Shown one piece after another: positions 7,600 to 36,360 of a DNA stretch of 64,000 nucleotides (position 1 is its first letter; each line of letters starts with the position of its first letter). The position numbers were made by a program, and so were the translations under genes. The DNA is from a virus: the IMG/VR virus record IMGVR_UViG_3300035162_004754, positions 1 to 64,000 of that record; one strand, given 5' to 3'. The notes beneath the pieces are model-generated. The model was not told where the DNA came from and did not search any database. It saw only the letters and a list, made by a program, of their open reading frames with translations.

Positions 7600-8416
7600 T
7601 TTATCTGTATTTGGAGGAACTGGATTTATTGGAGGTAAATTTTGTGAAATGTATTCTGATAAAGTTATTTTAGTCTCAAGAAACGATACAATTCCTCTTA
7701 CAAAAGACATTCTTTATTTTATTAGTACAACAACTAATCAAAATATCTTTAAAGATTTGCATGTAGATATTGATACTAATCTAACTCTATTGATGAATGT
7801 TTTATCTAATTGCAAGAAGAAGGATATAACATTTAACTTTATAAGTTCTGGTTTTGTCTATGGTAATGATGTATTATGTGCAAAAGAAAGTGATTGTTGC
7901 AATCCTACAGGGTTCTATTCGATTACTAAAAGAAGTGCAGAACAATTATTAATTTCTTATTGTAAAACATTTGATATAAAATATAGAATTTTCAGAATTG
8001 GAAATGTTTATGGATTAGATCCTACAATTACTCCAGGAAAAAATGTTCTTGGATTTATGATTGGACTTCTTAAACAAAACAAAGAAATTAAATTATTTGA
8101 AGGAGGAGATTTTCAAAAAGATTATATGTTTGTTGATGATATTTGTGGATCTATTAAATTTTTAATTGATAAATCTAACGTGAACGAAATTTATAATATC
8201 TCTACAGGATATTCTAAATCTTTTAGAGATATTATCTTAATCGCTAGAGATGTAGTTTCTAGCAAGAGTGAAATACTATCAATTCCATTTCCCAAAGATC
8301 AAGAATATATTCAAGTTAAAAATATGACACTCGATAATCATAAACTTTCCTCACTTGGTTATCTTCCGCATATGAATTTTAACGAGGGACTTCTTGAAAT
8401 GTGTAAAATATATTGA
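7592..8416 (+). CDS. NAD-dependent sugar epimerase/dehydratase
   Basis: 274 residues from ATG 7592. The N-terminal GGTGFIGGKF binds NAD(P). SSGFVYG and YSITKRSAEQ hold the Ser-Tyr-Lys catalytic set. GGDFQKDYMFVDDIC resembles the substrate-side motif of sugar epimerases. It occupies the operon position of rmlD, but the reductase hallmarks are not obvious, so it may be a variant reductase or epimerase making a different deoxy sugar. Confidence 0.8.
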   Translation: MTNLSVFGGTGFIGGKFCEMYSDKVILVSRNDTIPLTKDILYFISTTTNQNIFKDLHVDIDTNLTLLMNVLSNCKKKDITFNFISSGFVYGNDVLCAKESDCCNPTGFYSITKRSAEQLLISYCKTFDIKYRIFRIGNVYGLDPTITPGKNVLGFMIGLLKQNKEIKLFEGGDFQKDYMFVDDICGSIKFLIDKSNVNEIYNISTGYSKSFRDIILIARDVVSSKSEILSIPFPKDQEYIQVKNMTLDNHKLSSLGYLPHMNFNEGLLEMCKIY

Positions 8417-8439
8417 CTTTCTGTTGATACTATAGTAAT
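8411..8439 (+). promoter_or_regulatory. Internal sigma70-type promoter
   Basis: TTGACT, 17 nt, TAATAT, overlapping the end of the preceding gene and 29 nt before the next start. It could allow separate expression of the second part of the glycan block. Confidence 0.5.
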
Positions 8440-8468
8440 ATATACATTAGGAATTGAAAAAAAAAATT

Positions 8469-9515
8469 ATGTCCGATTATAAAAAAACTGCACTTGTACT
8501 TGGTGCCGGTGGATTTATTGGAAGTCATATGGTAAAGAGACTTCGTTCCGAAGGATACTGGGTTCGTGGTGTAGATCTTAAACATCCTGAATTTTCTGAA
8601 ACGGAAGCGAATGAATTTATTATTGGTGATTTAAGAGATGTTATTTTTGTAAGACGATGTGCTTTGTTTAATGGATATCTTGGAAATTTCTATAAAGATA
8701 TTGCAGATAAGTTTTGCGAACCTTTTGATGAAATTTATCAGTTTGCTGCTGATATGGGTGGAGCAGGTTTTGTTTTTACTGGTGAAAATGATGCAGATAT
8801 CATGCATAACTCGGTAAGAATTAATCTTAATCTTCTAGAAGAAGTAAAAAATATTAATTATAAACATGTTGTTAATAAAACTAAAATTTTCTATTCTGGA
8901 TCGGCATGTATGTATCCAGAACATAATCAATTAGACCCTGATAATCCAGACTGTCGTGAAGAATCAGCATACCCCGCTAACCCGGACTCCGAATACGGAT
9001 GGGAAAAACTTTTTAGTGAGCGTCTCTATCTTGCCTACAATCGCAACCATGATATCCCAATTAGGATTGCTAGGTATCATAATATTTTTGGACCTGAAGG
9101 AACTTGGGACGGTGGAAGAGAGAAGGCACCAGCTGCAATCTGCCGCAAAGTTGCTAAGCTCCCGCAGTCGGGTGGACCTATCGAGGTGTGGGGAGATGGG
9201 TTACAAACTCGTTCCTTCTTGTTCATTGATGAATGCATCGAAGCAACTAGAAGACTAATGGAAAGTGACTTTATAGGTCCTGTGAACATTGGTTCTGAAG
9301 AGATGGTGACTATTAATCAACTTGTGGATATTGCTGCCGAAGTTGCAGAAAAAGAAGTTTCTAAAACTCACAAACTTGATGGACCTCTGGGTGTTCGTGG
9401 TCGCAACTCTAATAATGATTTGATACGTGAGAAGTTGGATTGGGACTATGAAATGACACTTAAAGAAGGTATTCGTTATACTTACTATTGGATTAATGGT
9501 CAAATAAACAATTAA
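8469..9515 (+). CDS. GDP-mannose 3,5-epimerase-like SDR enzyme
   Basis: 348 residues from ATG 8469. A TTG 15 nt upstream is possible but adds only Lys-rich residues. It has GAGGFIGSHM for NAD binding, FAADMGGAGF, SACMYPEHNQ, EYGWEKLFSE with the catalytic Tyr and Lys, and RYHNIFGPEGTW with GGREKAPAA. The MGGAGF, Cys-Met-Tyr-Pro and HNIFGP motifs are characteristic of GDP-mannose 3,5-epimerase, which forms GDP-L-galactose or GDP-L-gulose. Together with Gmd downstream, it points to GDP-hexose chemistry. It follows an internal promoter rather than a coupled stop. Confidence 0.85.
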   Translation: MSDYKKTALVLGAGGFIGSHMVKRLRSEGYWVRGVDLKHPEFSETEANEFIIGDLRDVIFVRRCALFNGYLGNFYKDIADKFCEPFDEIYQFAADMGGAGFVFTGENDADIMHNSVRINLNLLEEVKNINYKHVVNKTKIFYSGSACMYPEHNQLDPDNPDCREESAYPANPDSEYGWEKLFSERLYLAYNRNHDIPIRIARYHNIFGPEGTWDGGREKAPAAICRKVAKLPQSGGPIEVWGDGLQTRSFLFIDECIEATRRLMESDFIGPVNIGSEEMVTINQLVDIAAEVAEKEVSKTHKLDGPLGVRGRNSNNDLIREKLDWDYEMTLKEGIRYTYYWINGQINN

Positions 9516-9536
9516 AATTTTTTTGTAAAAACTAGT

Positions 9537-10073
9537 ATGATTAAATTACTTATTCTTGATGTTGATGGTGTCATGACAGATGGCATAAAATATTATGACC
9601 GTGAGGGAACAGTTAAGTTAAAAACATTTTGTGATAAAGATTGGACTGCAATAAAAAGATTTCGTGCAATAGGTATTAATGTAGTATTTTTGACTGGTGA
9701 CCCATATAATATTAGTATTCTTGAGAATAGAAATCTTCATGTGATTGCTAATCGTGGAGAGGGTTTTCATAGTGATAAGAAAAATTATCTTGGAAAAATT
9801 TTGGAAGATTATAAATGTTCTGATGCAGAAACTGTATATGTTGGAGATGATCTTTTTGATATTGGAATTATGAGAAAAGTTTTTCATCCATATTGTCTTA
9901 TAGACTCTCCAAGATGTGTTAAGCAGGTTTCTAAAGTTCTGCCAGTTAAGGGTGGTGAAAATGTAGTTATGACACTATTCGACACACTTGAAATAGATGG
10001 GTTGCTTCCTTGCTTCTCTTATGATAAAGTAATAGACAAGATCTATGAACTTGACTTAAAGGAAAAATTTTAA
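9537..10073 (+). CDS. KdsC-like HAD sugar phosphatase
   Basis: 178 residues of a HAD hydrolase. LDVDGVMTDG supplies the nucleophile and acid Asp pair, VFLTGD is motif II, the Lys in HSDKKN is motif III, and YVGDDLFDIGIM is the metal-binding motif IV. The DVDGVMTDG form is typical of KdsC, which releases phosphate from Kdo 8-phosphate, and of the related acylneuraminate and heptose phosphatases. Neighbouring PfkB kinase and RpiB-domain genes suggest an eight- or seven-carbon acidic sugar route. The exact substrate is inference. Confidence 0.85.
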   Translation: MIKLLILDVDGVMTDGIKYYDREGTVKLKTFCDKDWTAIKRFRAIGINVVFLTGDPYNISILENRNLHVIANRGEGFHSDKKNYLGKILEDYKCSDAETVYVGDDLFDIGIMRKVFHPYCLIDSPRCVKQVSKVLPVKGGENVVMTLFDTLEIDGLLPCFSYDKVIDKIYELDLKEKF

Positions 10074-10744
10074 TGAAAGACGTTTCTCTTTACGGACATT
10101 TAACGATTGATACTATTCTTGAAGGGACTAAAGAAAAGAAAACTTTAGGATCAATGGCAAATGTATGGAAGGCATTATTAGAAATTGATTCAACTCTTGA
10201 TATTGGATTGTCTCCTATTGACATTGGACAAGCACTCATCTATATTGATAAACCTGCAGCTAAAAGATATTCTAAAGTTCAACTTAGTTTAGTTCAACAC
10301 AAAGCAAAAATTTTTTCATCTACAATTCATCATCTTATCTATTTGAATGAGATGAAACTGTATGATTTTATTCCCACTCTTGATGGAATTATTACAGCAG
10401 ATATATGTCCTGGTAAATCTGTAAATAAAAATTTACTTAAGTATATTGATTATCTTTTTATATCTGATGAAGATATTGATAGTGATTTATCAGACTACAC
10501 ATCCGAAACAAAAGGTTGGGTAATTCTTCATAGTGCATCTGGTAGTATTGTTTCTAATGGAGAAAAAGAGTTTTTTTACAAACTACCTGAAGATCTGATA
10601 CTGAAAGATGTAAATGTTTTGGGAGCAGGTGATATATTTGCTTCCTGTTTTTTATATAAATTATTAAAAGGTGAGGGAGATATTCATAATTGGATTGAAT
10701 TTGCACATTTAAAGACTACTGAAATTATTAAAAATTCTATATGA
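10073..10744 (+). CDS. PfkB-family carbohydrate kinase-like protein
   Basis: 223 residues. The C-terminal NVLGAGDIFASCFLYKLL is the PfkB/ribokinase signature with the catalytic Asp in GAGD. The N-terminus (YGHLTIDTI) resembles the first strand of the fold. It is shorter than most family members (about 300 residues), so lid elements may be missing. It overlaps both neighbours by ATGA-type junctions. It is expected to phosphorylate a sugar for the adjacent nucleotidyltransferase; the substrate is unknown. Confidence 0.78.
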   Translation: MKDVSLYGHLTIDTILEGTKEKKTLGSMANVWKALLEIDSTLDIGLSPIDIGQALIYIDKPAAKRYSKVQLSLVQHKAKIFSSTIHHLIYLNEMKLYDFIPTLDGIITADICPGKSVNKNLLKYIDYLFISDEDIDSDLSDYTSETKGWVILHSASGSIVSNGEKEFFYKLPEDLILKDVNVLGAGDIFASCFLYKLLKGEGDIHNWIEFAHLKTTEIIKNSI

Positions 10745-11898
10745 AACCAAATATTCTTATCCCTATGGCAGGACTTGGGAGCCGTTTTATTAAAGAGGGA
10801 TTTAAAGTTCCCAAACAACTGATCAATATCAAAGACAAACATTTGATTGACATCTCTCTAGATTGTTTAGACTATGAAGGATGCAATCTTATTTTTGTAG
10901 TTCGTGATGAAACAATTTATAATTTTCACATAGACGAACTTTTGAGAAAGAAGTTTGGTGATGATATTGAAATTGTTGTTTTAGATAAACTTACAGATGG
11001 TTCTGTTTGTAGTTGTCTTTATGCCGAAGAATATATTGATAACGATGCTCCTCTCATTATTCATACTTTAGACATTGAGTTTAGACCGGTCTTCAATCCT
11101 CATATTATGAATGAGATAGATGCTGATGGAATGCTTTTGACATTCAAATCAAACTCTATAAACTATAGTTATGCTGATGTGGGTGATGATGGGTATGTAA
11201 AGAAAACTGCTGAAAAGAAAGCAATTAGTAGTAATGCCTGTGTTGGTATATACGGATTCAAGAAAGGTTCTGATTTTTGTAAATATGCACGAGATATGAT
11301 TGATCGTGATCTTAGAACAAAAAATGAATTTTATATTTCACCACTGTATAATCTTTTGATTGATGATGGTAAGAAAATTCTTACTCAATCTGTAGATAAG
11401 ATGCATATTTTTGGAACTCCTGATGAGTTTCATTTTTATAAAAACAATGTTATTCGTCGCATTGGTGATAAACCCATTGCCATTTGTTCTGATCATTCTG
11501 GATTTGAAGCAAAAGAAATTTTTAAACAGATTTTAAATAAGCACAGTCTTGAATACATTGACTTTGGAACTATTCTGAATAAGGATTGTGATTATCGTGA
11601 TTATATTGCTCAGGCAGTTAAGTCAATTGGAGAGAGGGATTGTGACTATGGATTTGGATTCTGTCGTACAGGGCAAGGTATCAATATTTGTGCGAACAAG
11701 TATAAAGGTATTAGATCTGCTTTGATTTATAATGAGTTTGCAATGGAGATGTCAATCAGACATAATTGTGCTAACTTTTTTGCTATTCCCTCAAGAGATA
11801 TTGATTACAATACTTTAGACAAATATCTAGAGATTTGTTCAAACAATACTTTTGACGGTGGTCGTCATCAGATTCGTATTCAGGAGTTAGAAAAATGA
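10741..11898 (+). CDS. Fusion: sugar nucleotidyltransferase plus RpiB/LacAB-type isomerase
   Basis: 385 residues in two domains. Residues 1 to about 240 are a nucleotidyltransferase fold: IPMAGLGSRFIKEGFKVPKQ is the nucleotide-binding loop, with later Asp-rich metal-site candidates. Residues 245-385 match RpiB/LacA/LacB sugar-phosphate isomerases: SDHSG (250-254), DCDYRDY, CRTGQGI with Cys308, ANKYKGIRSAL, RHNCAN (340-345) and FDGGRHQIR (371-379). RpiB interconverts aldo- and keto-pentose phosphates. Fusing an isomerase to a nucleotidyltransferase suggests consecutive steps: isomerise, then activate. It is coupled to the kinase upstream and the cupin downstream. Confidence 0.88.
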   Translation: MKPNILIPMAGLGSRFIKEGFKVPKQLINIKDKHLIDISLDCLDYEGCNLIFVVRDETIYNFHIDELLRKKFGDDIEIVVLDKLTDGSVCSCLYAEEYIDNDAPLIIHTLDIEFRPVFNPHIMNEIDADGMLLTFKSNSINYSYADVGDDGYVKKTAEKKAISSNACVGIYGFKKGSDFCKYARDMIDRDLRTKNEFYISPLYNLLIDDGKKILTQSVDKMHIFGTPDEFHFYKNNVIRRIGDKPIAICSDHSGFEAKEIFKQILNKHSLEYIDFGTILNKDCDYRDYIAQAVKSIGERDCDYGFGFCRTGQGINICANKYKGIRSALIYNEFAMEMSIRHNCANFFAIPSRDIDYNTLDKYLEICSNNTFDGGRHQIRIQELEK

Positions 11899-12259: not shown

Positions 12260-12733
12260 ATGAAACTGATAGCACATCGTGGTAACATTGATGGTCCGAA
12301 TTTATTAAATGAAAATAATCCTGAACATATTGACAATATAATCCTACAAGGTTATGATGTTGAAATTGATATTAGATTTGATGATGACACTGAAAAATTT
12401 TTTCTTGGGCATGACTATTCAAAATATCTAGTTAATTGGTCTTGGTTACATAAACATAAAGAAAAATTGTGGATTCATTGTAAAAATATTGAGGCACTCT
12501 ATCAATTTTCTTCTAATCTTGATGGTTATAATTATTTTTGGCATGATAAAGATTCATACACTATGACTAGTAAAAAATATATTTGGTCTTATCCAGGAGA
12601 AAAATATAATTCCAAATCTATTATAGTGATGCCTGAGTTAAATTTATTTGAGTTTATTAATTGTGGATATATAGTTATGAAGCATTACAATTGTTTTGGT
12701 ATTTGTAGTGATTATGTGGGTAAAATTAAATGA
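12260..12733 (+). CDS. Glycerophosphodiesterase-like TIM-barrel protein
   Basis: 157 residues. MKLIAHRGN, then VEIDIRFD and GHDYSKY, correspond to the His-Arg, Glu-x-Asp and His catalytic sites of the glycerophosphodiester phosphodiesterase family. It is shorter than standard enzymes (about 240 residues). Short versions occur in polysaccharide gene clusters. It may hydrolyse or bind a glycerol-phosphate-linked sugar. The cytidylyltransferase opening the cluster would fit such chemistry. Confidence 0.7.
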   Translation: MKLIAHRGNIDGPNLLNENNPEHIDNIILQGYDVEIDIRFDDDTEKFFLGHDYSKYLVNWSWLHKHKEKLWIHCKNIEALYQFSSNLDGYNYFWHDKDSYTMTSKKYIWSYPGEKYNSKSIIVMPELNLFEFINCGYIVMKHYNCFGICSDYVGKIK

Positions 12734-13428
12734 CTTGTGTAAATGATTCTGCTTTTGTAGAACTTAAGAATAATTATGCCAATATTAATGTTGTTGATGT
12801 AGGAGCCGCAAGAGCATCATTTTTAGTTGAGTTAGAAAAAATTTTTAATTTAAATGATGTTTATGCTATAGGAATTGATCCTTTTGATCATAATGTTAAA
12901 GATCATTATGATAAATTTTTTCAGATATGTGTTGACAATGTAGATTCTCCTACAAAGAAAAAATTCTTTGTAAATTCTGATGATCAAACTAGTTCTCTTT
13001 GTAAATTGCAACCAGAGAATTTTTCCTCAAATTTGAATGATAAAGATAAATTTTATTATTCTCAAACAATTATTAATAAGATAACAAAAATTAAAGAAGT
13101 TGTCGAAGTTGATGTTTTAAATTTAAATTCTATTATTGAAGAAGAACTTCCAGAAGGAATAGTTCATTTTATAAAAATTGATACTGAGGGTAAGGACTTA
13201 GATATTATAAAATCTTTATCTGATGATACTTTAAATAGAACAAAATTTATATGTATCGAATGTCCTAATTTTATTTCTAGATTTGAAGGTGAGTCTAACA
13301 GAAAAGAATGTATAGATTATTTTGAATCTAAAAATTTTGAAGTATTTAATTTTATGAATTATGAGGAAGATCCTACTAATAGACAACCTATGAGTGATAT
13401 AGTTTTTGTTAATGGGAAAGATATATGA
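12730..13428 (+). CDS. FkbM-type methyltransferase
   Basis: 232 residues. NVVDVGAARASFLVEL is the S-adenosylmethionine-binding glycine loop, IGIDPFD is the acidic ribose-binding motif, and HFIKIDTEGKDLDIIKSL is the FkbM-family signature. Such enzymes O-methylate sugars in capsules and O-antigens. ATGA overlaps on both sides put it in the same operon. Confidence 0.82.
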   Translation: MTCVNDSAFVELKNNYANINVVDVGAARASFLVELEKIFNLNDVYAIGIDPFDHNVKDHYDKFFQICVDNVDSPTKKKFFVNSDDQTSSLCKLQPENFSSNLNDKDKFYYSQTIINKITKIKEVVEVDVLNLNSIIEEELPEGIVHFIKIDTEGKDLDIIKSLSDDTLNRTKFICIECPNFISRFEGESNRKECIDYFESKNFEVFNFMNYEEDPTNRQPMSDIVFVNGKDI

Positions 13429-14168
13429 AAATTGCATTATGTTTATCTGGACAACCAAGAGTTGTTGATGTTGGATTTTCTAAATTAAGTCAATCAATTC
13501 TTCAGCACAATAGTGATGTTGATGTTTTTATTCATACCTGGTTTGATGAAGAAAATCTTAGTACTAATTCTATAATACCCGGTAGAGAAAGCCATAGATT
13601 AGATCCAAATGCTATCAATAAATTAATTCAATATTATAGTCCTAAAAGAATAATGGTTGAGAAACCAAAAAAGTGGACAAGAAAATATGAATTTCCTGAT
13701 AAAGTTTTTACTCATGCACATACTTGGGCTTTAGAAGTTCCTTCTGGTTTGGAAGTTGCAAAAAAATATATTTGTGATACTACCAATAGTATGTTTTATA
13801 GTATTATGATGTCAAATCTTTTGAAGGAGCAGTATTCTGTTGAGAATAGTATAGAATATGATCTTGTTATTCGTAACCGTATTGATTATTCTCCCCATGT
13901 TGTGCTACAATTAGAGAACATCGTGATAAATGATGATGACCTCATGTATCAAGATTTATATCAACCTGATGGTATGATTAGTGATTGGTTTGCTATGGGA
14001 TCTTCTAATGCTATTAATACATTTTGTGGAGTTTACAATCAAATCGGACAATTAATTAAACAATCAAATGAAGTTGATGGTTATTGGTGTAATGAACTTT
14101 TATTAAAACATCATATTTCAAATAACAATATTAAAGTAAAACCTATTGACTTTCAAGTACACTATTAA
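13425..14168 (+). CDS. Putative glycosyltransferase-like protein of glycan clusters
   Basis: 247 residues. It begins IALCLSGQPR and has VFIHTWFD, a pattern seen in uncharacterised proteins of polysaccharide loci. A later YDLVIRNRIDY may hold a metal- or nucleotide-binding Asp. No classical DxD or GT-B signature is certain. Its position between methyltransferase and gmd supports a role in glycan transfer or modification. Confidence 0.65.
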   Translation: MKIALCLSGQPRVVDVGFSKLSQSILQHNSDVDVFIHTWFDEENLSTNSIIPGRESHRLDPNAINKLIQYYSPKRIMVEKPKKWTRKYEFPDKVFTHAHTWALEVPSGLEVAKKYICDTTNSMFYSIMMSNLLKEQYSVENSIEYDLVIRNRIDYSPHVVLQLENIVINDDDLMYQDLYQPDGMISDWFAMGSSNAINTFCGVYNQIGQLIKQSNEVDGYWCNELLLKHHISNNNIKVKPIDFQVHY

Positions 14169-14174
14169 ATTGAT

Positions 14175-15200
14175 ATGAAAACAGCACTTATCACCGGAAT
14201 TACAGGACAAGACGGTTCTTATCTTACTGAATTTTTGTTGGATAAAGGATACCGTATTCATGGTATTATTAGAAGAAACTCTACATCTGATGGTACAGAT
14301 CGTATTAATTATCTTTTGAATAATCCTTACATTACTCTTCATTATGGGGATATGACAGATTTTTCTAATCTTACATCAATTATTCAGGAAACTAGACCTG
14401 ATGAAATTTATAATCTGGCAGCACAGAGTCATGTTAAAGTTTCATTTTCCAGTTCTCTCTATACTTCAGATGTAGATGCATTAGGAGTTACCAGACTTTT
14501 GGAGGCATTGAGAATTCTTGGAATGATTAATACCACAAAATTTTATCAGGCAAGTACGTCTGAGATGTATGGTAAAGTTCAGTCTATTCCTCAAAGAGAA
14601 AGCACTAAATTTCATCCACGTTCTCCATATGGAGTAGCAAAATTATATGCACATTGGATTCTTAAAAATTATAGAGAAGCATATGGTCTCTTTGGGTGTA
14701 GTGGAATTCTTTTTAATCATGAAAGTCCAAGACGTGGAGAAAATTTTGTAACACGCAAAACTACGAAGGTTCTTTCGGAAATTAAAAATGGTAAGAGATC
14801 TGCTCCTTTAGAGTTGGGAAATTTAGATGCTAAAAGAGACTGGGGTCATGCTAAAGATTATGTTGAGGCAATGTGGTTAATGCTGCAACAAGAGCATCCT
14901 AATGATTATGTTGTATCTACAGGGGAACAGCATTCAGTGCGTGAGTTTGTAAGTATTGCATGTGAACATATTGGATTTGATATTGAATGGAGTGGAACTG
15001 GAATAGATGAAGTGGCAACTATCAAAGAAACTGGTGAAGTTCTTGTAAGAGTCAATCCAGATTATTATCGTCCTACCGAAGTTGATTCTTTAGTCGGTGA
15101 TCCAACTTTCGTTAAAAACGAAATTGGATGGAAACCCAAGTATTCTTTTGCAGATCTTGTAAAAGAAATGTGTGATAGTGATATGGAGGCATCTAAATGA
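14175..15200 (+). CDS. gmd: GDP-mannose 4,6-dehydratase
   Basis: 341 residues. [10 protein letters not shown] is the NADP-binding loop specific to Gmd, followed by [36 protein letters not shown] with the catalytic Thr/Ser-Glu, [11 protein letters not shown] with Tyr-Lys, and [16 protein letters not shown]. It converts GDP-mannose to GDP-4-keto-6-deoxymannose, the precursor of GDP-L-fucose and other deoxyhexoses. A downstream alpha-1,2-fucosyltransferase gives it an obvious customer. No clear GDP-fucose synthase is seen, so the host may finish the route. Confidence 0.95.
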
Positions 15201-16126
15201 AAAGAAAAATTATTTTTTGGGTAGAAAATAAACCATATCAAACATTTTCATACATTTATGCTGGTATGAAAAGAGCTTTTGAAAAATTGGGATGTGAAAC
15301 ATATTGGTTTAGTGATCAATCTTTTCCCTCTGCTTCAGAATTTGATTATAGTAACTGTATCTTTTTTATTGATAATCAAGGTCCTCTTGATTGGAATGTT
15401 CCTATTATAGATAGTGGAATTTATTTTGCTTATGATAAATTTACTAATGTTAATAAGTATCTGGATAAAGTTAAGTGCTTAATTAATTATCGTGTAGCAG
15501 AATTTAAACATCCTATTTTGGATAATGATAGATATGTTGAAATTGAAAAGGGAGTTATATTTGATACACAAACACCCGAACCATACAATGTAGTTCACTT
15601 TCATTATGCAACTAACTTACTTCCGGAAGAAATTGATTTGAATTGGGCAAAGAAAAATAGGAATAATGAGTACAATTTTGTGGGTACTATTCATGATCCC
15701 AGACCTAATTGTGAACCAATTCATCAGCAATTTATTGAGATTGTAAAAGAGAAACAAATTCCTTTTAATCATTACAATCCAAATATTAATCCAGTAACGG
15801 ATGAAGAACATGTTAAAATTCTTCAAGACTCAATGTTTGTCCCAGATTTTAGACCTGCAGAACAAAAAGTTCAACGTTATGTTGCTGATAGAATTATGAA
15901 AGCAATTAGTTACGGTTGTCTTGTAGTTTCTGATTGTCATTATGCAAAAGATTTTATTGATAAAGATCTTTTAACTTCTGAAAATGCACAAGAAATTTTT
16001 GATTTGGGTATGGAAAATCAAAATAACATAGAATTAATTTCTCATTTAATGGAGATTGTTAAAAGAGATCATACGTATATGAACAGATGCAAAGGAATTT
16101 TAAGTATTGTTGAGGAGGTTGAGTAA
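15197..16126 (+). CDS. Putative GT-B glycosyltransferase
   Basis: 309 residues. A first half beginning [20 protein letters not shown] is followed by a C-terminal segment, [20 protein letters not shown]. This resembles the nucleotide-sugar-side helix of GT-B enzymes, where a conserved region near the end marks the active gene product. ATGA overlaps with gmd and the methyltransferase indicate cotranscription. The donor is unknown. Confidence 0.65.
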
Positions 16127-17361
16127 TGTCTAGGTATGTTGAAATTGAATCCTGTAGGGTAAGTAAAAAAAATGATTTAGTATCTTTTTTAAATCTTGGA
16201 AGTCAAAAACTAACAGGTGTCTTTCCAAGGCCAAATGAAGAAATTGATAGTGGACCTTTGGAATTGGTTTGGAGTCCATCTAGTAATCTTGTACAATTAA
16301 AGCATACTTTTGAACCTACGGAAATGTATGGGGATAACTATGGGTATCGTTCTGGATTGAATAATTCAATGGTTCAACACCTTACTAGTAAGGCAAATTA
16401 TCTTATTGAACTTTCTAATCTTGAACCTGGAGATGTTGTTGTTGATATTGGATCAAATGATTGCACAACTCTTAAATCATTTCCCAACTACACAAAAAGA
16501 ATTGGTATTGATCCTACTATAAAAAAGTTTTCTCAATATTATCCTGAAGAAATTCCCTATATTGCAGATTTTTTCTCGAAGGAATCTTATCGTTCTGTTG
16601 AAAAAGATAAGAATGCAAAACTCGTAATGTCTATTGCATGTTTTTATGATCTTGATGATCCTGTCACATTTGTAAAAGACATTCGTTCTATTCTTACTGA
16701 TGATGGAATGTGGCATTTTGAACAAGCGTATTTGCCATCAACTCTTAGATCTAGTTCTTATGATACAGCATGTCATGAACATATTGAATATTACTCAATG
16801 CTTTCTGTTCAAAATATTCTTGAACGGGCAGGGATGAAAATTGTTGATGTCACTCTTAATGACATTAATGGTGGTAGTTTTGCTGTAACTGCATGTAAAG
16901 ATACTAATACTTCAATTAAAGTAAATGATGCAGTAATTAATTGGTTGATTGATGAAGAGTATAAAATGGGTCTTCATACAATTAAACCTTATTATGACTT
17001 TGCTCAGAGAGCATATGATCATCGTGATTCGATTGTAAATCTTGTTAGGTCTCTTCGTGCTGATGGTAAAACCATTTATGGATACGGTGCCTCAACTAAA
17101 GGTAATGTTCTTCTTCAGTGGTGTGGATTTACTTCTGATGATATTACTGCTGTTGGTGAAGTTAATAGTGATAAGTTTGGTTGTGTAACTCCGGGAACTG
17201 ATATACCTATCATCTCTGAGGAGGAAGTTAAAGCATCCAATCCAGATTATATGATTGTGTTACCGTGGCACTTTAAAAATGGTATAATCCAAAGAGAAAA
17301 AGATTTCATGAAATCTGGAGGTAATTTTATTTTTCCTCTCCCATACATTCAAATTATTTGA
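16126..17361 (+). CDS. C-methyltransferase of deoxysugar type
   Basis: 411 residues in the three-part layout of sugar C-methyltransferases. It has an N-terminal domain (SFLNLGSQKLTGVFPRPNEE), a SAM domain around GDVVVDIGSNDCTTLKSF, and a C-terminal domain with TIYGYGASTKGNVLLQWCG, a second nucleotide-binding-like motif. Relatives (NovU and TylCIII types) methylate a carbon of 4-keto-deoxysugars, which matches the keto sugars made by RmlB or Gmd nearby. Length is typical. The upstream gene is coupled by TAATG. Confidence 0.85.
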   Translation: MSRYVEIESCRVSKKNDLVSFLNLGSQKLTGVFPRPNEEIDSGPLELVWSPSSNLVQLKHTFEPTEMYGDNYGYRSGLNNSMVQHLTSKANYLIELSNLEPGDVVVDIGSNDCTTLKSFPNYTKRIGIDPTIKKFSQYYPEEIPYIADFFSKESYRSVEKDKNAKLVMSIACFYDLDDPVTFVKDIRSILTDDGMWHFEQAYLPSTLRSSSYDTACHEHIEYYSMLSVQNILERAGMKIVDVTLNDINGGSFAVTACKDTNTSIKVNDAVINWLIDEEYKMGLHTIKPYYDFAQRAYDHRDSIVNLVRSLRADGKTIYGYGASTKGNVLLQWCGFTSDDITAVGEVNSDKFGCVTPGTDIPIISEEEVKASNPDYMIVLPWHFKNGIIQREKDFMKSGGNFIFPLPYIQII

Positions 17362-17386
17362 CAAATAATTTAAACAGTGGTAGTAT
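17358..17386 (+). promoter_or_regulatory. Possible internal promoter
   Basis: TTGACA overlapping the preceding stop codon, 17 nt, TAGTAT, about 25 nt before the next gene. The weak -10 makes it tentative. Confidence 0.4.
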
Positions 17387-17410
17387 AAATTATAAAGTAT
17401 TGGTAAATTT

Positions 17411-18184
17411 ATGAGTGTCAATGTTTACTACCATATTTGGTCTCCTCCAGACACCGACATGTGGAAGTTAATGGTTGATGAACAAATTAAAAGATTGTAT
17501 CGTTCGGGTTTGTCTGAAATAGCAAATATAAAATGTGCTATTAATGGAAAACAAGCATCGAGAATTAAAGAATTTGTTTCTCTTTACGATTGGATTGAAA
17601 TTTTAGAGTGTAAAGATAGTGATGATCAATATGAAGGATTTACTCTTAAATATCTTTATGAAGATTGTGTAAATCAGAAAGTTGATAAAGTGATGTACTT
17701 TCATACAAAGGGTATGAGTCATCTTTCTGGAGCAAGAGATGTATATTCTGATCGTAGATTTCGAGCAATAAATAGTTGGAGACACCTCATGGAATGGGGT
17801 TGTATCGATAAATGGAATGTAAACTTACATAAGTTAAATGCCTGTCAAGTTTCAGGAGTTAACTATTGCTTGGATCCATGGCCACACATGAGTGGTAATT
17901 TTTGGTGGGCAAGAGCAGATTATATATCAACTCTTCAGCATCCAACTAAACAAGCATTTCAGAGAACAGCAGAAGACTTTGGTCCAATTGAAAGGATGAA
18001 TTTTGAGAAATGGATTGGTATGAAAAATCCATCTGTTTATAGTTTTTACGATCCACCATTCAGTTATGATTTTAAGAATCTTGTTCCTGACATTCAACCT
18101 ACTCCTCCAGGTGAGCCATATTGGTTCTGGTTATATCGAGATGATATCCACCCACATTATTTAAAATATTTAAAAGAAGTATGA
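17411..18184 (+). CDS. Putative glycosyltransferase
   Basis: 257 residues. VMYFHTKGMSH and HMSGNFWWARADYI resemble motifs of uncharacterised glycan-cluster glycosyltransferases, in which a mid-protein His-Thr-Lys-Gly segment and a later Gly-Asn-Phe-Trp-Trp segment line the active site. Its stop overlaps the next start (ATGA-type). Specificity is unknown. Confidence 0.7.
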   Translation: MSVNVYYHIWSPPDTDMWKLMVDEQIKRLYRSGLSEIANIKCAINGKQASRIKEFVSLYDWIEILECKDSDDQYEGFTLKYLYEDCVNQKVDKVMYFHTKGMSHLSGARDVYSDRRFRAINSWRHLMEWGCIDKWNVNLHKLNACQVSGVNYCLDPWPHMSGNFWWARADYISTLQHPTKQAFQRTAEDFGPIERMNFEKWIGMKNPSVYSFYDPPFSYDFKNLVPDIQPTPPGEPYWFWLYRDDIHPHYLKYLKEV

Positions 18185-18909
18185 CTGTAAAATTTGGATG
18201 TTTTCATACAGTATATGAAAACAAAAAAGCAACTGAGTTTATATTACAAGAGTTTAGAAAATATCATCCAGATGCTCCATATACTATCTGTTGCGATGGT
18301 GGAGTAGACTACTCTGATCTCTGTGAAAAATATAATGTAAATTATGTTCATTCATACATGAGAATTGGTCGAAGAAATGCTGGTGATCCCTCAGGAATTT
18401 ATGGATTCACAAAAGATGAAAGTCTGCATTGGATTCATATGTTTAGAGAAGCTGCTAGACATGTAATGGATAATGGTGGAACACATATGATCATGATGGA
18501 AGATGATGTTCTTACACAAGGTGAAGTAAAAATTAATCCTATTTGGGAATGTGCTGGATTTGAAGTTCCTGAAAATAAAATTTCACCAAAAATGTTAGAA
18601 TTTATTTCTGACAAATATGGAGCAAATCCAAATGTAGATTGGTATGGTGCTGGTGGAGGTAGCATCTATAATATAGAAACCTTCCTCAATAATTATCATA
18701 AAATTTATGATTTTATTGATTTTGATTTTGATAATATTCTTGAAAATATGGATCACAGATTTGGTTGGTTGGATCTTTATATGCAAATTGCATATTTTGT
18801 AATTGGTAAACATTATTCTATTAATACCAATCTCACTGAAGTATGGAAAACTCCAAACTTTCGTGAAAGTGATTTCACTCTTGTTCATGCTTATAAGGAA
18901 TTGTACTAA
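18181..18909 (+). CDS. Putative GT-A glycosyltransferase
   Basis: 242 residues. The N-terminus (FGCFHTVYENKKATEFILQE) and MIMMEDDVLTQG, an acidic Asp-Asp metal-binding motif after hydrophobic residues, fit a GT-A nucleotide-sugar transferase. GAGGGSIYN could form the acceptor loop. It is coupled to genes on both sides. Confidence 0.7.
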   Translation: MTVKFGCFHTVYENKKATEFILQEFRKYHPDAPYTICCDGGVDYSDLCEKYNVNYVHSYMRIGRRNAGDPSGIYGFTKDESLHWIHMFREAARHVMDNGGTHMIMMEDDVLTQGEVKINPIWECAGFEVPENKISPKMLEFISDKYGANPNVDWYGAGGGSIYNIETFLNNYHKIYDFIDFDFDNILENMDHRFGWLDLYMQIAYFVIGKHYSINTNLTEVWKTPNFRESDFTLVHAYKELY

Positions 18910-19880
18910 TGAAAATTGGATTTATTGGACCAGGTATTATACCCATTCCTCCTGATGGATGGGGTGCTGTAGAATCTTTAATATGGGAGATTGCATGTGA
19001 ACTTGGAGAAAAAGGTCATGAAGGAATGATCATTAATGATCCTGATTTGGATGAAATTGTAAAAACAGTTCAAGAAAACGATTTTGATTTTATTCATGTT
19101 TTCTATGATGTGTTCTATCCGATAATGGATGCTATTAAAAAAGTTTCTCCCAAATCAGTAACTGCCATTAGTAGTGCATATCCATATGTTGATCAACCTA
19201 ATTTTTATCCTAGAGATGGATATGCTCCTATCTATGAATGGTTTGTAAGTCAGAAAGATCATTATAATTTTTGTCTTTCTGATAAAGATTTGTTGACATA
19301 TAAAAATGGTGGAGCAGATGAATCCAAACTTATTCGTTTAGGTCTTGGTGCTCAACACAAAAATTTCAAATTTGATCTTGAATGTGAGAAGACAAACAAA
19401 ACTTTGTACATGGCAAAAATTGAAATTAGAAAACGTCAGTGGATTTATCAACCAATTGAAAGTATAGATTTTGTTGGTAGGTATTCTTCAACTACAACTT
19501 TTGATAAACTTCATAAAAGTTATATTGGAGAATGGACAACTGAAGAAAAGCATGATAATGTAACTAAGTATGCAAATTTAATGCTTCTATCTGATGGAGA
19601 AAATGGAACACCCTTAGTCATTAAAGAGGCACTTGTTTCTGGTCTTGGTATTGTGTGCTCCAGATATTGTGCATATGATCTCGATACTTCTCTTCCATTT
19701 ATTACAATCATTCCGGATGATAAATTAAATGACCTTGAATATGTTGAGAATGCAATTGAAGAGAATAGAAAGATTTCTATTACTATGCGTAAAGAAATTA
19801 GGGAATATGGTGTAAGTAATTTCTCTTGGGAAAATATTGTCAATCAATATGAAAAAGATATTATTGAAATTATGAAATGA
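18909..19880 (+). CDS. GT4-like glycosyltransferase
   Basis: 323 residues. FIGPGIIPIPPDGWGAVESL is the N-terminal acceptor-domain motif of group 1 GT-B transferases. LLSDGENGTPLVIKEALVSGLG is the C-terminal Glu-containing donor motif (EX7E-like). It is closely similar to the first half of the next gene, including the shared PIPP-GWGAVESLIW motif, which implies tandem duplication. Confidence 0.85.
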   Translation: MKIGFIGPGIIPIPPDGWGAVESLIWEIACELGEKGHEGMIINDPDLDEIVKTVQENDFDFIHVFYDVFYPIMDAIKKVSPKSVTAISSAYPYVDQPNFYPRDGYAPIYEWFVSQKDHYNFCLSDKDLLTYKNGGADESKLIRLGLGAQHKNFKFDLECEKTNKTLYMAKIEIRKRQWIYQPIESIDFVGRYSSTTTFDKLHKSYIGEWTTEEKHDNVTKYANLMLLSDGENGTPLVIKEALVSGLGIVCSRYCAYDLDTSLPFITIIPDDKLNDLEYVENAIEENRKISITMRKEIREYGVSNFSWENIVNQYEKDIIEIMK

Positions 19881-21544
19881 GAATATCAATTATTGGCCCA
19901 AACACTCCCATTCCTCCTAGAGGTTGGGGTGCTGTAGAATCTCTTATTTGGGATTATAAATTATCTTTGGAAAAGTTGGGACATACAGTTCAAATAATAA
20001 ACATTGGGGAACCAATAAAAATTTTGAACATGATTGAGGAGTTCCAACCAGATTTTGTTCATATTAATTATGATGATTGGATTCCTCTATATCCTTATAT
20101 TAGATATCCTTGTGCCATAACAACTCACTTTGCTTACATTGAAAGACCTGAATTAATGGGTCCATATAAGGAAAGAGTTTTTGATGTTTTTACTCAAGTT
20201 AAACCTACAGTCTTTGGATTGTCTGATGGAATCAACAAAGTCTATGAGAATGATTGCAAAATATCTTCGGATAGATTATTTTTAAATCCAAATGGAGTCA
20301 TGTCAGATAACTTTAGAGTAACTGATTCTCCAAAATTTTCTGATAGATCAATCTTTCTTGCAAAAGTTGATTATAGGAAGAGGCAATGCTTCTTTCAATC
20401 AATTGATAGTTTATGGTATGCAGGTAATATTGTAGATCATAGATTTGACCAATCTAAAAACTATCTTGGAGAGTGGGAAAAAGAATATCTTTATGATAAT
20501 CTAACTGACTATGGCAATCTTGTGCTCTTGTCTGATGGTGAGGCACATTCTTTAGTTATTATGGAAGCCTTTGCTGCAGGTCTTGGAGTTGTTGTTAGTG
20601 AATGGGCAACTGCAAATCTTGATATAAGTAAAGAATTTATTACTGTAATTCCTGAAGACAAGGTAAATGATTTAGAATATATTGAGAAAGTAATCATTGA
20701 GAACAGAGAATATTCTGTAAATAATAGAGATGAAATTTTAGAATATTCAAAACAATTTGACTGGACAAACGTAATACAAAATTATTATATGCCTAACATT
20801 GAAACAGTTATTAAAAACAAAAAAACTAAAGTTGCCATATGCTTTATTGGAACTGGCAAGTATCTTAATTTTTTACCAAAATATTATGAGAATATAGAAA
20901 AATATTTTCTTCCAAATTCAATAAAAACTTTCATGGTCTTTACTGATGGTGAACTAGATGGATTGCCTGATAATATAATTAAGTATCAACAAGAACATTT
21001 AAAATGGCCTTTTATTACTTTAAAGAGATTTGAAATTATTGATAAGGCAAGGGACGAGATTTTAAAAAACGATTGGTTGGTCTTTATTGATGCTGATGGT
21101 TTAGTTGTTGATGAAATCAGTGAAGAAGAATTTTTTGATGATGATAAATCTTTCTTTGGAGTTCATCATCCATGTCATTATTTGAAAATGCCAGGGCATC
21201 AAAGTTTTTCTGGATCATTCGAAACTAATCCAAAATCTAGATCTTCTGTTTCTAATGAAGATGATACTTCTACATATTGGCAAGGATGTTTATGGGGTGG
21301 AAAAGTTCCTGATGTTTTTAAACTGATTGATGAAATTAAAACAAGAGTTAATGATGATTTAAAAGATGATATAATTGCAGTATGGCATGATGAAAGTCAT
21401 TTAAATAAATTTTTTATTGAAAATAAAAATAATGTAAATACTTTACCTTCATCCTATGCATACCCAGAAGATTTTTCTTCTCAATGTAATTTTGATCCAA
21501 AAATAGTTCATCTATCAAAAGATAATTCAAAATATCAATTATAA
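19877..21544 (+). CDS. Two-domain glycosyltransferase: GT4-like plus GT6 (ABO/alpha-galactosyl type)
   Basis: 555 residues. Residues 1 to about 310 are a GT-B enzyme (TPIPPRGWGAVESLIW, then LLSDGEAHSLVIMEAFAAGLG), a paralogue of the previous gene. Residues about 315-555 carry the GT6 pattern of the human ABO and alpha-1,3-galactosyl transferases: MVFTDG, a Lys-Trp segment before a helix, FIDADG with DxD at 405-407, GVHHPCHY, YWQGCLWGG and AVWHDESHLNKFF (501-513), nearly identical to the vertebrate signature. GT6 enzymes add Gal or GalNAc alpha-1,3 to galactose, retaining configuration. A GT6 gene is known in cyanophage P-SSM2. The GT4 fusion suggests two consecutive sugar additions. Confidence 0.9.
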   Translation: MRISIIGPNTPIPPRGWGAVESLIWDYKLSLEKLGHTVQIINIGEPIKILNMIEEFQPDFVHINYDDWIPLYPYIRYPCAITTHFAYIERPELMGPYKERVFDVFTQVKPTVFGLSDGINKVYENDCKISSDRLFLNPNGVMSDNFRVTDSPKFSDRSIFLAKVDYRKRQCFFQSIDSLWYAGNIVDHRFDQSKNYLGEWEKEYLYDNLTDYGNLVLLSDGEAHSLVIMEAFAAGLGVVVSEWATANLDISKEFITVIPEDKVNDLEYIEKVIIENREYSVNNRDEILEYSKQFDWTNVIQNYYMPNIETVIKNKKTKVAICFIGTGKYLNFLPKYYENIEKYFLPNSIKTFMVFTDGELDGLPDNIIKYQQEHLKWPFITLKRFEIIDKARDEILKNDWLVFIDADGLVVDEISEEEFFDDDKSFFGVHHPCHYLKMPGHQSFSGSFETNPKSRSSVSNEDDTSTYWQGCLWGGKVPDVFKLIDEIKTRVNDDLKDDIIAVWHDESHLNKFFIENKNNVNTLPSSYAYPEDFSSQCNFDPKIVHLSKDNSKYQL

Positions 21545-21548
21545 AAAA

Positions 21549-22397
21549 ATGAAAATCGCAATCTTAGGATCTGCTGGACAGATCGGTGCTTATCTAGAAG
21601 ATTACTTAAAAGAGAAAGGTCATGATGTAATTGGTGTTGATATAGTTGAAGGTCCGCAGAATGATCTTCGTGTAACACCAAACACTTATGTTGAAGGCAT
21701 TATAAAGAATGCTGACTTTGTTTTCTTCTTGGCATTTGATGTTGGTGGATCACATTACCTGAAGAAGTATCAACATACTTTTCAGTTCATTAACAACAAT
21801 ACTCGTATGATGGCAAATACTTTTGCCTTACTTGAGAAGTATCGGAAGAGATTTATATTTGCATCTTCACAGATGAGTAACATGTCTTACTCTCCATATG
21901 GTGTGATGAAGAGAGTTGGTGAACTTCATACCACTGCACTCAAAGGACTTACAGTGAAGTTCTGGAATGTCTATGGTATTGAAAAAGATATGGAGAAGGC
22001 TCATGTCATCACTGATTTCATTCGTAGAGGATTTGAGGAGGGTGAATTTGAGATGATGACTGATGGCACTGAAGAACGTCAGTTCCTCTATGCTGAGGAC
22101 TGTTGTGAGGCACTAGAGACTGTGATGGAAAACTTTACCGACTTCAAACCAGAAGATCCTCTCCATATTACGTCTTTTAGTTCTACTTCGATTAAAGATG
22201 TCGCTTCTATTATTCAGGGACAATTTAATTTGATTGGTAAAACAGTTAATATTAAACCTGGTCTTGCAAAAGATAGTGTTCAGATGGATAAGAGAAACGA
22301 AGCAGACACTTACATTATGGGATGGTGGATACCTAAAACTACTATAGATAGAGGGATTGCAAAAGTTTTTGAGGATATGAAAGGTGATTGGATTTAA
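21549..22397 (+). CDS. NAD-dependent sugar epimerase
   Basis: 282 residues. LGSAGQIGAYLEDYL binds NAD(P), FASSQMSN supplies Ser, YSPYGVMKRVGE supplies the Tyr-x3-Lys pair, and EERQFLYAEDCCEA is the conserved substrate-side motif of extended SDR sugar enzymes. Its stop is overlapped by the fucosyltransferase start. It could complete a GDP-sugar route, such as GDP-fucose synthesis, but motif evidence does not fix the reaction. Confidence 0.78.
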   Translation: MKIAILGSAGQIGAYLEDYLKEKGHDVIGVDIVEGPQNDLRVTPNTYVEGIIKNADFVFFLAFDVGGSHYLKKYQHTFQFINNNTRMMANTFALLEKYRKRFIFASSQMSNMSYSPYGVMKRVGELHTTALKGLTVKFWNVYGIEKDMEKAHVITDFIRRGFEEGEFEMMTDGTEERQFLYAEDCCEALETVMENFTDFKPEDPLHITSFSSTSIKDVASIIQGQFNLIGKTVNIKPGLAKDSVQMDKRNEADTYIMGWWIPKTTIDRGIAKVFEDMKGDWI

Positions 22398-23235
22398 TCA
22401 TATTGGAACGATTGGAAGATTTGGCAATCAAATGTTTCAGTATGCAGCACTCAAAGGTATTGCCGCAAATCGAAAGTTTGAATATACAATTCCTCCAGAG
22501 AACTCACAAGTTCAAATTGATAATTATGGATTGCTAGAAGCATTTGAACTTACAGACAATAAAAATATTGGATGGATTGAAACTGAAAATATAATTCAGG
22601 AAAAGCATTTCCATTTTGATGAGGATATATTTAATAAGTGTCCTGACAAAGTAAGTGTTTATGGATTTTTTCAGACGGAAAAATATTTCAAACATATTGA
22701 AGATGAAGTTCGTAAAGATTTTACTTTCAAAAGTAATTGGTTAGATCCTTGTAAAGAGTTTCGTAGTCAGATGGGAGAAGAAGTTATCTTCCTTCATGTT
22801 CGTCGTGGTGATCCTGGACTTGCCGATAAGAGAGGATTTAAATGGGCATACGTAAACCTTGCACATCAACATCCTGTGCAACCTCTTGAGTATTATGAAA
22901 AAGCACTTGCAGAGTTTGATGAAAGTCTTCCTGTAGTTGTATTTTCTGATTCGATTGAGTGGTGTAAGGAGCAAGAGTTCTTTCAGAATGATCGATTTAT
23001 GTTCTCTGAACCAGAAGATACTCATTCAGACGGTGCATTAGTTCCTTATCTTGACATGTGCTTGATGTCTTTGTGTGATCATGCTATTATTGCTAATAGT
23101 TCTATGAGTTGGTGGGGTGCATGGTTGATTCAAAATCCAAACAAAAAAGTAATTGCTCCAAGCATGTGGTTTGGTTCTGATTATGCTGATAAAGATACAA
23201 AAGATTTATATTGCGAGAATTGGAAAGTAATTTAA
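22384..23235 (+). CDS. Alpha-1,2-fucosyltransferase (GT11)
   Basis: 283 residues. GRFGNQMFQYAALKGIA is the N-terminal GT11 motif. FLHVRRGDPG is the GDP-fucose-binding HxRRGD motif. IIANSSMSWWGAWL with a following Lys-x-Val-Ile-x-Pro segment is the third conserved motif. GT11 enzymes transfer L-fucose alpha-1,2 to galactose, building the H-antigen type disaccharide. It overlaps the epimerase before it and the GT25 gene after it. Confidence 0.93.
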   Translation: MIGFNHIGTIGRFGNQMFQYAALKGIAANRKFEYTIPPENSQVQIDNYGLLEAFELTDNKNIGWIETENIIQEKHFHFDEDIFNKCPDKVSVYGFFQTEKYFKHIEDEVRKDFTFKSNWLDPCKEFRSQMGEEVIFLHVRRGDPGLADKRGFKWAYVNLAHQHPVQPLEYYEKALAEFDESLPVVVFSDSIEWCKEQEFFQNDRFMFSEPEDTHSDGALVPYLDMCLMSLCDHAIIANSSMSWWGAWLIQNPNKKVIAPSMWFGSDYADKDTKDLYCENWKVI

Positions 23236-24029
23236 TGGATAAAAATAAGGCACTTTATAAACTCAAAAAACTTCCTCCCATATATTATCTAAATCTGGAT
23301 GAGCAACCAGAAAGAAAAGAATATATGGAAGAGCAATTTAAGTATTGGGAGATTGAGAATTATACTCGTATCTCTGCATACGACGGTAGAGATGGTAGAG
23401 ACCTTGGAGATATTCTTAAAGGAAGATATCCAGATAATATGTCCTCTGGTGAGGTTGGATGCACCACGTCTCATTTAAAAGCAATGGTGGAGTTTCTCAA
23501 GACAGATGCTCCATGTGCCTTAGTAATGGAAGATGATTGCGATATTTCTACTGCTGCTCATTGGCCTTTTGAATGGAAAAATTTTTATGCAAAAATTCCT
23601 TATGATTATGATGTAGTCCAACTTGCTGTCATTAATCCTGCATCAGTTCATTTGAGAATACATAAGAGATTTGTGAATGATTTCTCAACTGCATGTTATT
23701 TGATTACACGTCGTCATGCACAAAAACTAATTGACCTTCATGTGAGAGGAGATAAGTATAAGATTGATAATGGAGTCAAACCAAGAGCAGTTGCCGATGA
23801 TTTGATTTATAATTCTGGAAATACTTTTGCTATTCCTTTGTTCTTATATAAACTTGAACTCGGTTCTTCGATTCATAAAGAACATATCGATGTTTTTCAT
23901 AAGTCAAGTTATGAAGGTCTTTGGAATTTTTGGAAGACACAGGCAAATCAAATAGAAGATTGGAACTCTATATTTGACTACGACCCATACTTTAATCGGT
24001 TGCCACCAGAACAAAAAAGTGACGAATAA
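23235..24029 (+). CDS. GT25-family glycosyltransferase
   Basis: 264 residues from ATG 23235, which overlaps the preceding TAA. YYLNLDEQPERKEYM, RISAYDGRDG, GEVGCTTSHL and LVMEDDCD with the acidic metal-binding motif are classic for GT25, the LPS galactosyltransferase family. FSTACYLITRRHAQKL matches the later conserved segment. It is the last gene of the glycan block and is followed by a terminator. Confidence 0.88.
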   Translation: MDKNKALYKLKKLPPIYYLNLDEQPERKEYMEEQFKYWEIENYTRISAYDGRDGRDLGDILKGRYPDNMSSGEVGCTTSHLKAMVEFLKTDAPCALVMEDDCDISTAAHWPFEWKNFYAKIPYDYDVVQLAVINPASVHLRIHKRFVNDFSTACYLITRRHAQKLIDLHVRGDKYKIDNGVKPRAVADDLIYNSGNTFAIPLFLYKLELGSSIHKEHIDVFHKSSYEGLWNFWKTQANQIEDWNSIFDYDPYFNRLPPEQKSDE

Positions 24030-24034
24030 TACAG

Positions 24035-24060
24035 AGAGGGGCTTGACTCCTCTTTATTTT
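24035..24060 (+). terminator. Terminator of the glycan block, -35 in its loop
   Basis: AGAGG and CCTCT form a short stem around GGCTTGACT, followed by TTATTTTT. The loop contains TTGACT, the -35 of the hli promoter. Confidence 0.65.
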
Positions 24061-35997: not shown

Positions 35998-36001
35998 TCA
36001 A

Positions 36002-36343
36002 ATGGCAGTTGCAGCAGCAGCAGTAAATGTATTCCAAACTGTTACAAATATAGTTGGAACAAGTACAGTCGGAATTTATACAGCACCCATTGGATATACG
36101 GGGGTTGTTCTTCTGGCACAAGTAACTAATATTGGGTCATCGACTCAAACACTTAGTTTTGGTCATCGTAGAAGTGGAACAGATACTGAGATTGTTAAGA
36201 ATTTAGCAATTCCGGCAAGTGACACAGCAAATTTATTGCCAGGAAAACTGGTTGTAGAAACTGGTGACATATTGACTACGGTTGGTAGCACTTCTACTGA
36301 TCTTAAATTTTTATCGAGCATTCTGGAAACATCAAATCTCTAA
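36002..36343 (+). CDS. Small virion structural protein
   Basis: 113 residues, rich in Ala, Thr, Val, Ser and Gly, with alternating beta-strand-like pattern and no cysteine (TSTVGIYTAPIGYTGVVLLA). It lies between two fibre genes, 4 nt after the first. It may be a fibre tip or connector domain, which is inference from context. Confidence 0.65.
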   Translation: MAVAAAAVNVFQTVTNIVGTSTVGIYTAPIGYTGVVLLAQVTNIGSSTQTLSFGHRRSGTDTEIVKNLAIPASDTANLLPGKLVVETGDILTTVGSTSTDLKFLSSILETSNL

Positions 36344-36360
36344 TATTTTAAAGTAGTAAA

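Follow-up and report, generated by a model that had tools for sequence, protein, structure and literature searches.

The bacterial glycosyltransferase family 6 (GT6) enzymes BoGT6a and WbnI act on Fuc-alpha-1,2-Gal, that is, on fucose linked to galactose (Gal) (PMC3961637, PMC4202792). GT6 genes have previously been reported in two cyanophages (PMC3961637), and GT11 and Gmd have been annotated in a cyanophage (PMC9602691). The locus described here lies in a stretch of 64,000 nucleotides (the window), which forms part of a fragmentary 75,039-base IMG/VR virus record, IMGVR_UViG_3300035162_004754; the final 11 kb of the record were covered by profile search only. The record comes from a marine, T4-like cyanophage, with psbA (25826), psbD (28840), purine genes, and tail-fibre and baseplate-like genes. 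Within it, one gene encodes a GT4-type domain joined to an ABO-type GT6 domain, and a GT11 gene of the alpha-1,2-fucosyltransferase family follows after one intervening gene. With moderate confidence, we read the fused protein as a bifunctional cytosolic glycosyltransferase of a phage glycan operon, whose GT6 half acts after the GT11 enzyme to build a cap with the topology of a blood-group determinant. The features on which this reading turns are as follows.

19877..21544, plus strand: GT4::GT6 fusion, 555 amino acids, one uninterrupted open reading frame (ORF)
19877..20821, plus strand: GT4-type (GT-B fold) domain, residues 1-315 (phrog_33732, AlphaFold2, Foldseek, invariant columns)
20792..20851, plus strand: fusion joint, residues 306-325, an A-rich stretch in which coding stays in frame
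20828..21544, plus strand: GT6 domain, residues 318-555 (PF03414, BoGT6a and ABO alignments, AlphaFold2 with Foldseek)
22384..23235, plus strand: GT11 alpha-1,2-fucosyltransferase-family enzyme (PF01531, E=2.3e-25; phrog_2644, E=3.5e-107)

An original prediction, made from the sequence before any search, had placed the C-terminal part of the protein in GT6, and the profile agrees (PF03414, E=4.5e-23, 82 bits against a cut-off of 25, residues 308-531). The quoted motifs are in place: FIDADG (D405/D407), HHPCHY (H431), YWQGCLWGG (Q469-G470-C471) and AVWHDESHLNKFF (E506). The key residues are thus D405-A-D407, H431, Q469-G-C471, E506 (the glutamate of WHDES) and K548. The predicted structure has a GT-A fold of the GT6 type. 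Its nearest solved relative is BoGT6a of Bacteroides ovatus (Foldseek template modelling (TM) score on the target 0.86-0.91, ~30% identity), the human ABO transferases being more distant (TM ~0.7, 24-25% identity). The expected resemblance to the ABO fold was therefore found, but "closely matching vertebrate ABO" was an overstatement because BoGT6a is the closer of the two (~30% versus ~24%). The DxD that had been noticed, D405-A-D407, has a counterpart in all 104 distinct viral GT6 rows, and the glutamate at the nucleophile position is retained in the window clade; among 79 bacterial rows, NxN types stand against 22 with DxD. In a side clade of ~15 viral GT6 proteins (loci L082, L095-L097, L130-L137, L144, L161 and L190), FYEE, WYEE or a similar string replaces WHDE, the glutamate again being retained. 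A NAN-type GT6 close to that of Gemmiger was also seen (L284:1254-2078) in a 7.7-kb record from human faeces, labelled "Bacteriophage sp." and unverified, which may be bacterial DNA. Judged by its family, the GT6 domain of the window would be a retaining alpha-1,3 transferase of Gal or N-acetylgalactosamine (GalNAc).

The GT11 call likewise held: the gene scores 89.9 bits with PF01531 (cut-off 23.9) and carries both HVRRGD, of the form HxRRxD, and ANSSMSWWGAWL. A search of PDB sequences with the protein returned zero matches. Alpha-1,2 transfer of L-fucose is the activity predicted from the family, of which one member works as an alpha-1,3 enzyme (PMC4202792).

The linkage of GT6 with GT11 is the strongest new result of this study. 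Of the distinct viral GT6 genes, 84 have flanks of 2 kb or more; a GT11 gene lies within 2 kb of 83 of these and within 50 bp of 51, the same counts being 30 and 10 for the GT4 domain and 19 and 8 for GT25. These counts cover related phages rather than independent events, at loci fetched with GT6, GT11 and GT4 queries. Viral GT6 genes with no GT11 in reach all lie within ~1.2 kb of a contig end, and at four loci (L039, L059, L064, L075) GT11 sits 3.7-6.5 kb from GT6. Contigs retrieved with the GT4 domain as sole query encode GT11 in 62 of 65 cases with GT6 versus 2 of 13 lacking it (Fisher p=3e-9), or 47 of 49 versus 0 of 3 when restricted to contigs of at least 14 kb (p=5e-4), a contrast that short contigs inflate. 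The association extends to bacteria, where GT11 lies no more than 2 kb away for 42 of 79 GT6 genes. Most striking among individual cases is a Hoeflea metagenome-assembled genome in which GT6 and GT11 share one 530-residue ORF (L276:5998-7590), directly after a GT25 gene and one gene past a clear GalE. In the cultured phages S-PRM1 and Bellamy, three overlapping genes encode epimerase, GT11 and GT6, and in P-SSM2 a single run comprises Gmd, a GDP-fucose synthase-like gene, GT11, GT6 and GT25. Conserved adjacency, the bacterial link and the natural GT6::GT11 fusion support the functional connection originally proposed, and action of GT6 after GT11 is well supported by this genomic context.

The fusion, originally recognized in this one sequence, is real, and both of its halves are under purifying selection. 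Residues 1-315 match phrog_33732 (E=2.5e-146) and residues 317-554 match phrog_3317 (E=1.3e-103), two families whose members mostly occur as separate proteins; the last GT4 helix (296-314) passes directly into the first GT6 strand at residue 318. AlphaFold2 modelled the whole protein with a mean predicted local distance difference test score (pLDDT) of 89.7 and a predicted TM score of 0.84. The A-rich joint might suggest that the fusion arose in assembly or sequencing, or that the gene is decaying, but nine other IMG/VR metagenome contigs keep the fusion intact (L004-L012; one partial at a contig end). Their GT4 halves are 68-96% and their GT6 halves 72-95% identical to those of the window, and the same joint recurs in L004, L006 and L010-L012. 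The ratio of nonsynonymous to synonymous substitution rates between fused copies is 0.03-0.08 for the GT4 half and 0.06-0.18 for the GT6 half (pairs computed, last pairs excluded), catalytic positions are retained, and close pairs show purifying selection over the joint (residues 306-325) as well. An artefact is hardly credible in the face of these copies and was refuted in practice. Phage GT6 was already known; a GT4::GT6 two-enzyme protein is undescribed in the literature that we searched, which covered few subscription journals, and the same literature yielded no prior description of a phage GT11-GT6 pairing or of a GT6::GT11 fusion.

The N-terminal half was originally called GT4-like, a description that stands for fold and motif and fails for the Pfam models. 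Foldseek assigns the half a GT-B fold, with MshA, BshA and PimA-like enzymes as its nearest matches (13-19% identity, TM 0.7-0.8 to query). The part modelled alone reaches a pLDDT of 95.2, and R167, K168, E222 and E230, the last two forming E222-x7-E230, are invariant across 37 homologues. The Pfam GT4 models match the half only marginally (E=0.016) and under their cut-offs, and we therefore word its membership as "GT4-type". The PHROGs match, the predicted fold and the invariant residues support its being an enzyme of this type.

The original prediction had also suggested that the fusion adds two sugars in sequence. Its single polypeptide, kept in nine other contigs, could be taken this way, as could a second GT4::GT6 lineage (L153/L168/L170) whose more distant GT6 falls outside the window clade in the tree. 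Partners of the GT4 domain vary, however. It is fused to GT25 in eight viral loci (L186, L188, L189, L191, L193, L196, L197, L199) and to a NolO-like carbamoyltransferase in a SynMITS9220M01 protein (L003:8001-10520), the GT4 domain of which is 81% identical to that of the window over 332 residues, and in most relatives GT4 and GT6 are separate genes. The GT4 gene thus fuses with whichever gene lies downstream, and this speaks against a dedicated chemistry in which GT4 precedes GT6. In addition, the sugar added by a retaining GT4 enzyme is expected to be alpha-linked, but the acceptors of GT6 enzymes are beta-Gal(NAc), and the GT11 step would have to intervene before an ABO-like GT6 could act. 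Consecutive addition of two sugars by the fused protein is therefore improbable.

The fusion belongs to a tightly packed run of glycan genes on the plus strand (12730-24029; gaps of -25 to +49 bases), the other members of which are listed here with the hairpin that follows them.

Start 12730, plus strand: FkbM-type methyltransferase-like gene, which opens the run
14175..15200, plus strand: Gmd, GDP-mannose 4,6-dehydratase (TIGR01472, 521 bits, cut-off 415)
15197..16126, plus strand: glycosyltransferase-like protein (PF13524, E=1.3e-5)
16126..17361, plus strand: sugar C-methyltransferase (PF08484, E=2.5e-51; PF08421)
17411..18909, plus strand: two genes, 17411-18184 without a family match and 18181-18909 glycosyltransferase-like
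18909..19880, plus strand: stand-alone paralogue of the GT4 domain (phrog_33732, E=3e-74), overlapping the fusion gene by 4 bp
21549..22397, plus strand: nucleotide-sugar epimerase/reductase of the short-chain dehydrogenase/reductase (SDR) type (PF01370, E=2.3e-24), overlapping GT11 by 14 bp
23211..24029, plus strand: GT25, inverting, lipopolysaccharide (LPS) type (PF01755, E=6.3e-15), a conserved GT11 neighbour that closes the run
24033..24055, plus strand: terminator-like hairpin directly past GT25

The hairpin is a possible operon end; terminator-like sites overall are no more numerous than the shuffled mean, and only the location of this one is suggestive. The order of the two genes at 17411-18184 and 18181-18909 is kept in several relatives, and the second of them shows a weak, below-cut-off likeness to the SseK/NleB family over a short stretch. 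The SDR family frequently adjoins GT11 in relatives. ORF 21549 was considered as a UDP-Gal 4-epimerase or a GDP-fucose synthase, neither of which its profile scores (27-38 bits) bear out; its top NCBIfam match is GDP-fucose synthase, at 38 bits versus 500. Further upstream, 5665-10744 encodes a heptose-1-phosphate adenylyltransferase-like protein, a dTDP-glucose 4,6-dehydratase, more SDRs, a KdsC-like phosphatase and a PfkB-like kinase, and a single ORF at 10741-11898 joins a nucleotidyltransferase-like N-terminal half to an RpiB/LacAB-like C-terminal half.

Read as a pathway, the GT25 enzyme may lay down a beta-linked acceptor residue, to which GT11 would attach a 6-deoxyhexose (fucose or a relative) at O-2 of a terminal beta-galactose-type residue. 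The GT6 domain, presumably metal-dependent and retaining, could then add alpha-1,3-linked Gal or GalNAc, giving a trisaccharide branched in the manner of the blood-group A/B determinant. Since the GT25 family includes the beta-4-galactosyltransferase LgtB (PMC4202792), GT25, GT11 and GT6 would make a coherent route to such a cap. The GT4 domain would add an alpha-linked sugar elsewhere in the chain, and the fusion may merely tether or co-regulate two enzymes of one pathway.

Several observations weigh against this scheme. Human A- and B-type enzymes read L-G-G and M-G-A, respectively, at the donor-specificity triplet (ABO positions 266-268). The window reads Q-G-C there, matching neither type, and this triplet was absent from every characterised GT6 compared. 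QGC occupies these positions in 97 of 104 viral rows; most bacteria have AGG, MGG or CGG, and P-SSM2 has AGG. No GDP-fucose synthase scored above cut-off in the 75-kb record (profile search; best 80 bits versus 500), and none was found in the loci of the fused lineage at 230 or more aligned residues. A modified 6-deoxysugar is suggested by the C-methyltransferase encoded next to Gmd. The relatedness of the phages counted must also be set here, as must the fact that GT11 often occurs without GT6, which accompanies it at only 29 of 79 GT11 loci. The literal blood-group A/B epitope that was first envisaged is thus weakened by the triplet and the missing synthase, although the latter is no proof because the record is a fragment. 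A GDP-fucose synthase is found at ~40 other GT6 loci. Gmd is accompanied by a C-methyltransferase both in the window and in Synechococcus phage DSL-LC02, in which the genes run Gmd, methyltransferase, GDP-fucose synthase, and this pairing makes a C-methylated 6-deoxyhexose possible. ABO residue 266 discriminates Gal from GalNAc (PMC4202792), and by inference the bulky Gln at this position would lean towards Gal.

The triplet, the missing synthase and the C-methyltransferase could also mean that GT6 and GT11 catalyze separate steps of one LPS-like chain, using unusual donors on different residues and making no blood-group-like branch. The many sugar-nucleotide functions encoded upstream, and the ~37 of 79 bacterial GT6 genes without GT11 within 2 kb, agree with such a chain. 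On the other hand, GT11 is far nearer to GT6, and more constantly beside it, than the other transferases tested, one bacterium contains the GT6::GT11 fusion, and the characterised bacterial GT6 enzymes use Fuc-alpha-1,2-Gal (PMC3961637, PMC4202792). We consider independent steps rather unlikely and favor the branched cap.

The cap is most probably placed on a host surface glycan of the LPS type during infection, with decoration of the virion as the main alternative. Repeated membrane spans were predicted in none of the genes of the run, and the sole hydrophobic stretch in the fusion is marginal, which is consistent with glycan assembly in the cytosol. The enzymes of the run appear to be cytosolic, and both LPS core and virion proteins can be reached from there. 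A capsid, tail or fibre protein would make a convenient cytosolic acceptor needing no export, and tail-fibre-like genes lie ~10 kb downstream (33772-42666). These genes are not adjacent to the run, however, no protein acceptor or glycosite was identified, the cytosol also builds LPS core, and GT25 and the sugar-nucleotide genes resemble LPS assembly. Because of these LPS-type neighbours we favor the host surface, and a glycan on the virion seems doubtful.

In the GT6 tree, the QGC cyanophage clade adjoins the GT6 proteins of an Omnitrophota, a Saprospiraceae and a Pacearchaeota bin, while P-SSM2 GT6 falls among DxD GT6 proteins of other bacteria. This separate placement implies at least two acquisitions of GT6 by cyanophages. 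P-SSM2, originally cited as precedent, shows that phage GT6 was already known, but it represents a different lineage, apparently acquired separately, and was rejected as a direct relative of the window GT6. The DxD shared with vertebrates might suggest a vertebrate ABO gene as the source of the domain, and mimicry of animal hosts. DxD is also present in 22 of 79 bacterial GT6 proteins, however, BoGT6a is closer than ABO, and the clade has the neighbours just named (in a tree that contained no vertebrate rows), so that a vertebrate source is not favored and strikes us as extremely improbable. A cyanobacterial host was rejected as the source of the gene: GT6 is rare (3 of 300 genomes; GT11, 33 of 300) in the family sampled, to which a cyanobacterium with a psbA 96% like that of the phage belongs, and the two full-length GT6 proteins read from this family carry a different motif, FQNC. 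No GT11 lay within 6 kb of GT6 in the one cyanobacterial genome checked. At L293:5814-6500, the small-genome cyanobacterium with this psbA carries a DxD GT6 of FQNC type, with no GT11 found nearby. Likely hosts seldom carry GT6, and the copies found differ in type.

To our knowledge, no product has been assigned to cyanophage "LPS gene clusters" in the two decades since they became known. The conserved enzyme pair, with bacterial and human counterparts that build a defined trisaccharide, provides a specific prediction, testable with lectins in the cultured phages S-PRM1 (on Synechococcus WH7803) and Bellamy (on WH8109). The pairing of ABO-like with fucosyltransferase genes, retained in related phages and bacteria, suggests a blood-group-shaped sugar cap; the exact sugars and the decorated molecule are putative. 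More broadly, and only tentatively, a GT11-GT6 module may be widespread among marine cyanomyoviruses, in many cases accompanied by GT25 and by sugar-nucleotide enzymes of the phage itself; it would place a branched trisaccharide shaped like a blood-group determinant, possibly containing a modified 6-deoxysugar, on host LPS or on the virion, and some lineages have fused its GT6 to a GT4. If so, an ABO-type glycan design would operate in the conflict between phages and cyanobacteria, far from animals. The GT4::GT6 and GT6::GT11 fusions are also potential new enzyme tools.

Among characterised enzymes, BoGT6a (4AYJ/4AYL) is a GalNAc transferase that forms an A-antigen-like product on 2'-fucosyllactose. 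It shares with the phage domain the GT6 fold, WHDES, the Lys231 equivalent and the minimal GT6 length. It differs in being of the metal-independent NAN type with triplet AGG, against DAD, QGC and a GT4 domain at the N-terminus in the phage protein. Human GTA and GTB share the fold and DxD, and their HP-x and WHDES regions align; they differ in having L-G-G or M-G-A in place of Q-G-C at 266-268, and the phage protein lacks their membrane anchor and stem. P-SSM2 GT6 (PSSM2_268) also has DxD and lies in a cyanophage operon with Gmd, a GDP-fucose synthase-like gene, GT11 and GT25, but it is unfused, of a separate lineage (~35% identity), and carries AGG. In phage DSL-LC02, four genes in a row encode GT4, GT11, GT6 and GT25 proteins from the same families; unlike those of the window they are unfused, and a full-length GDP-fucose synthase-like protein is encoded too. 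In E. coli O86, finally, WbwK (GT11) followed by WbnI (GT6) yields the blood-group B determinant (PMC4202792). This is the order of action proposed here, although the O86 pathway is a chromosomal O-antigen system, non-phage and unfused, whose activities have been assayed.

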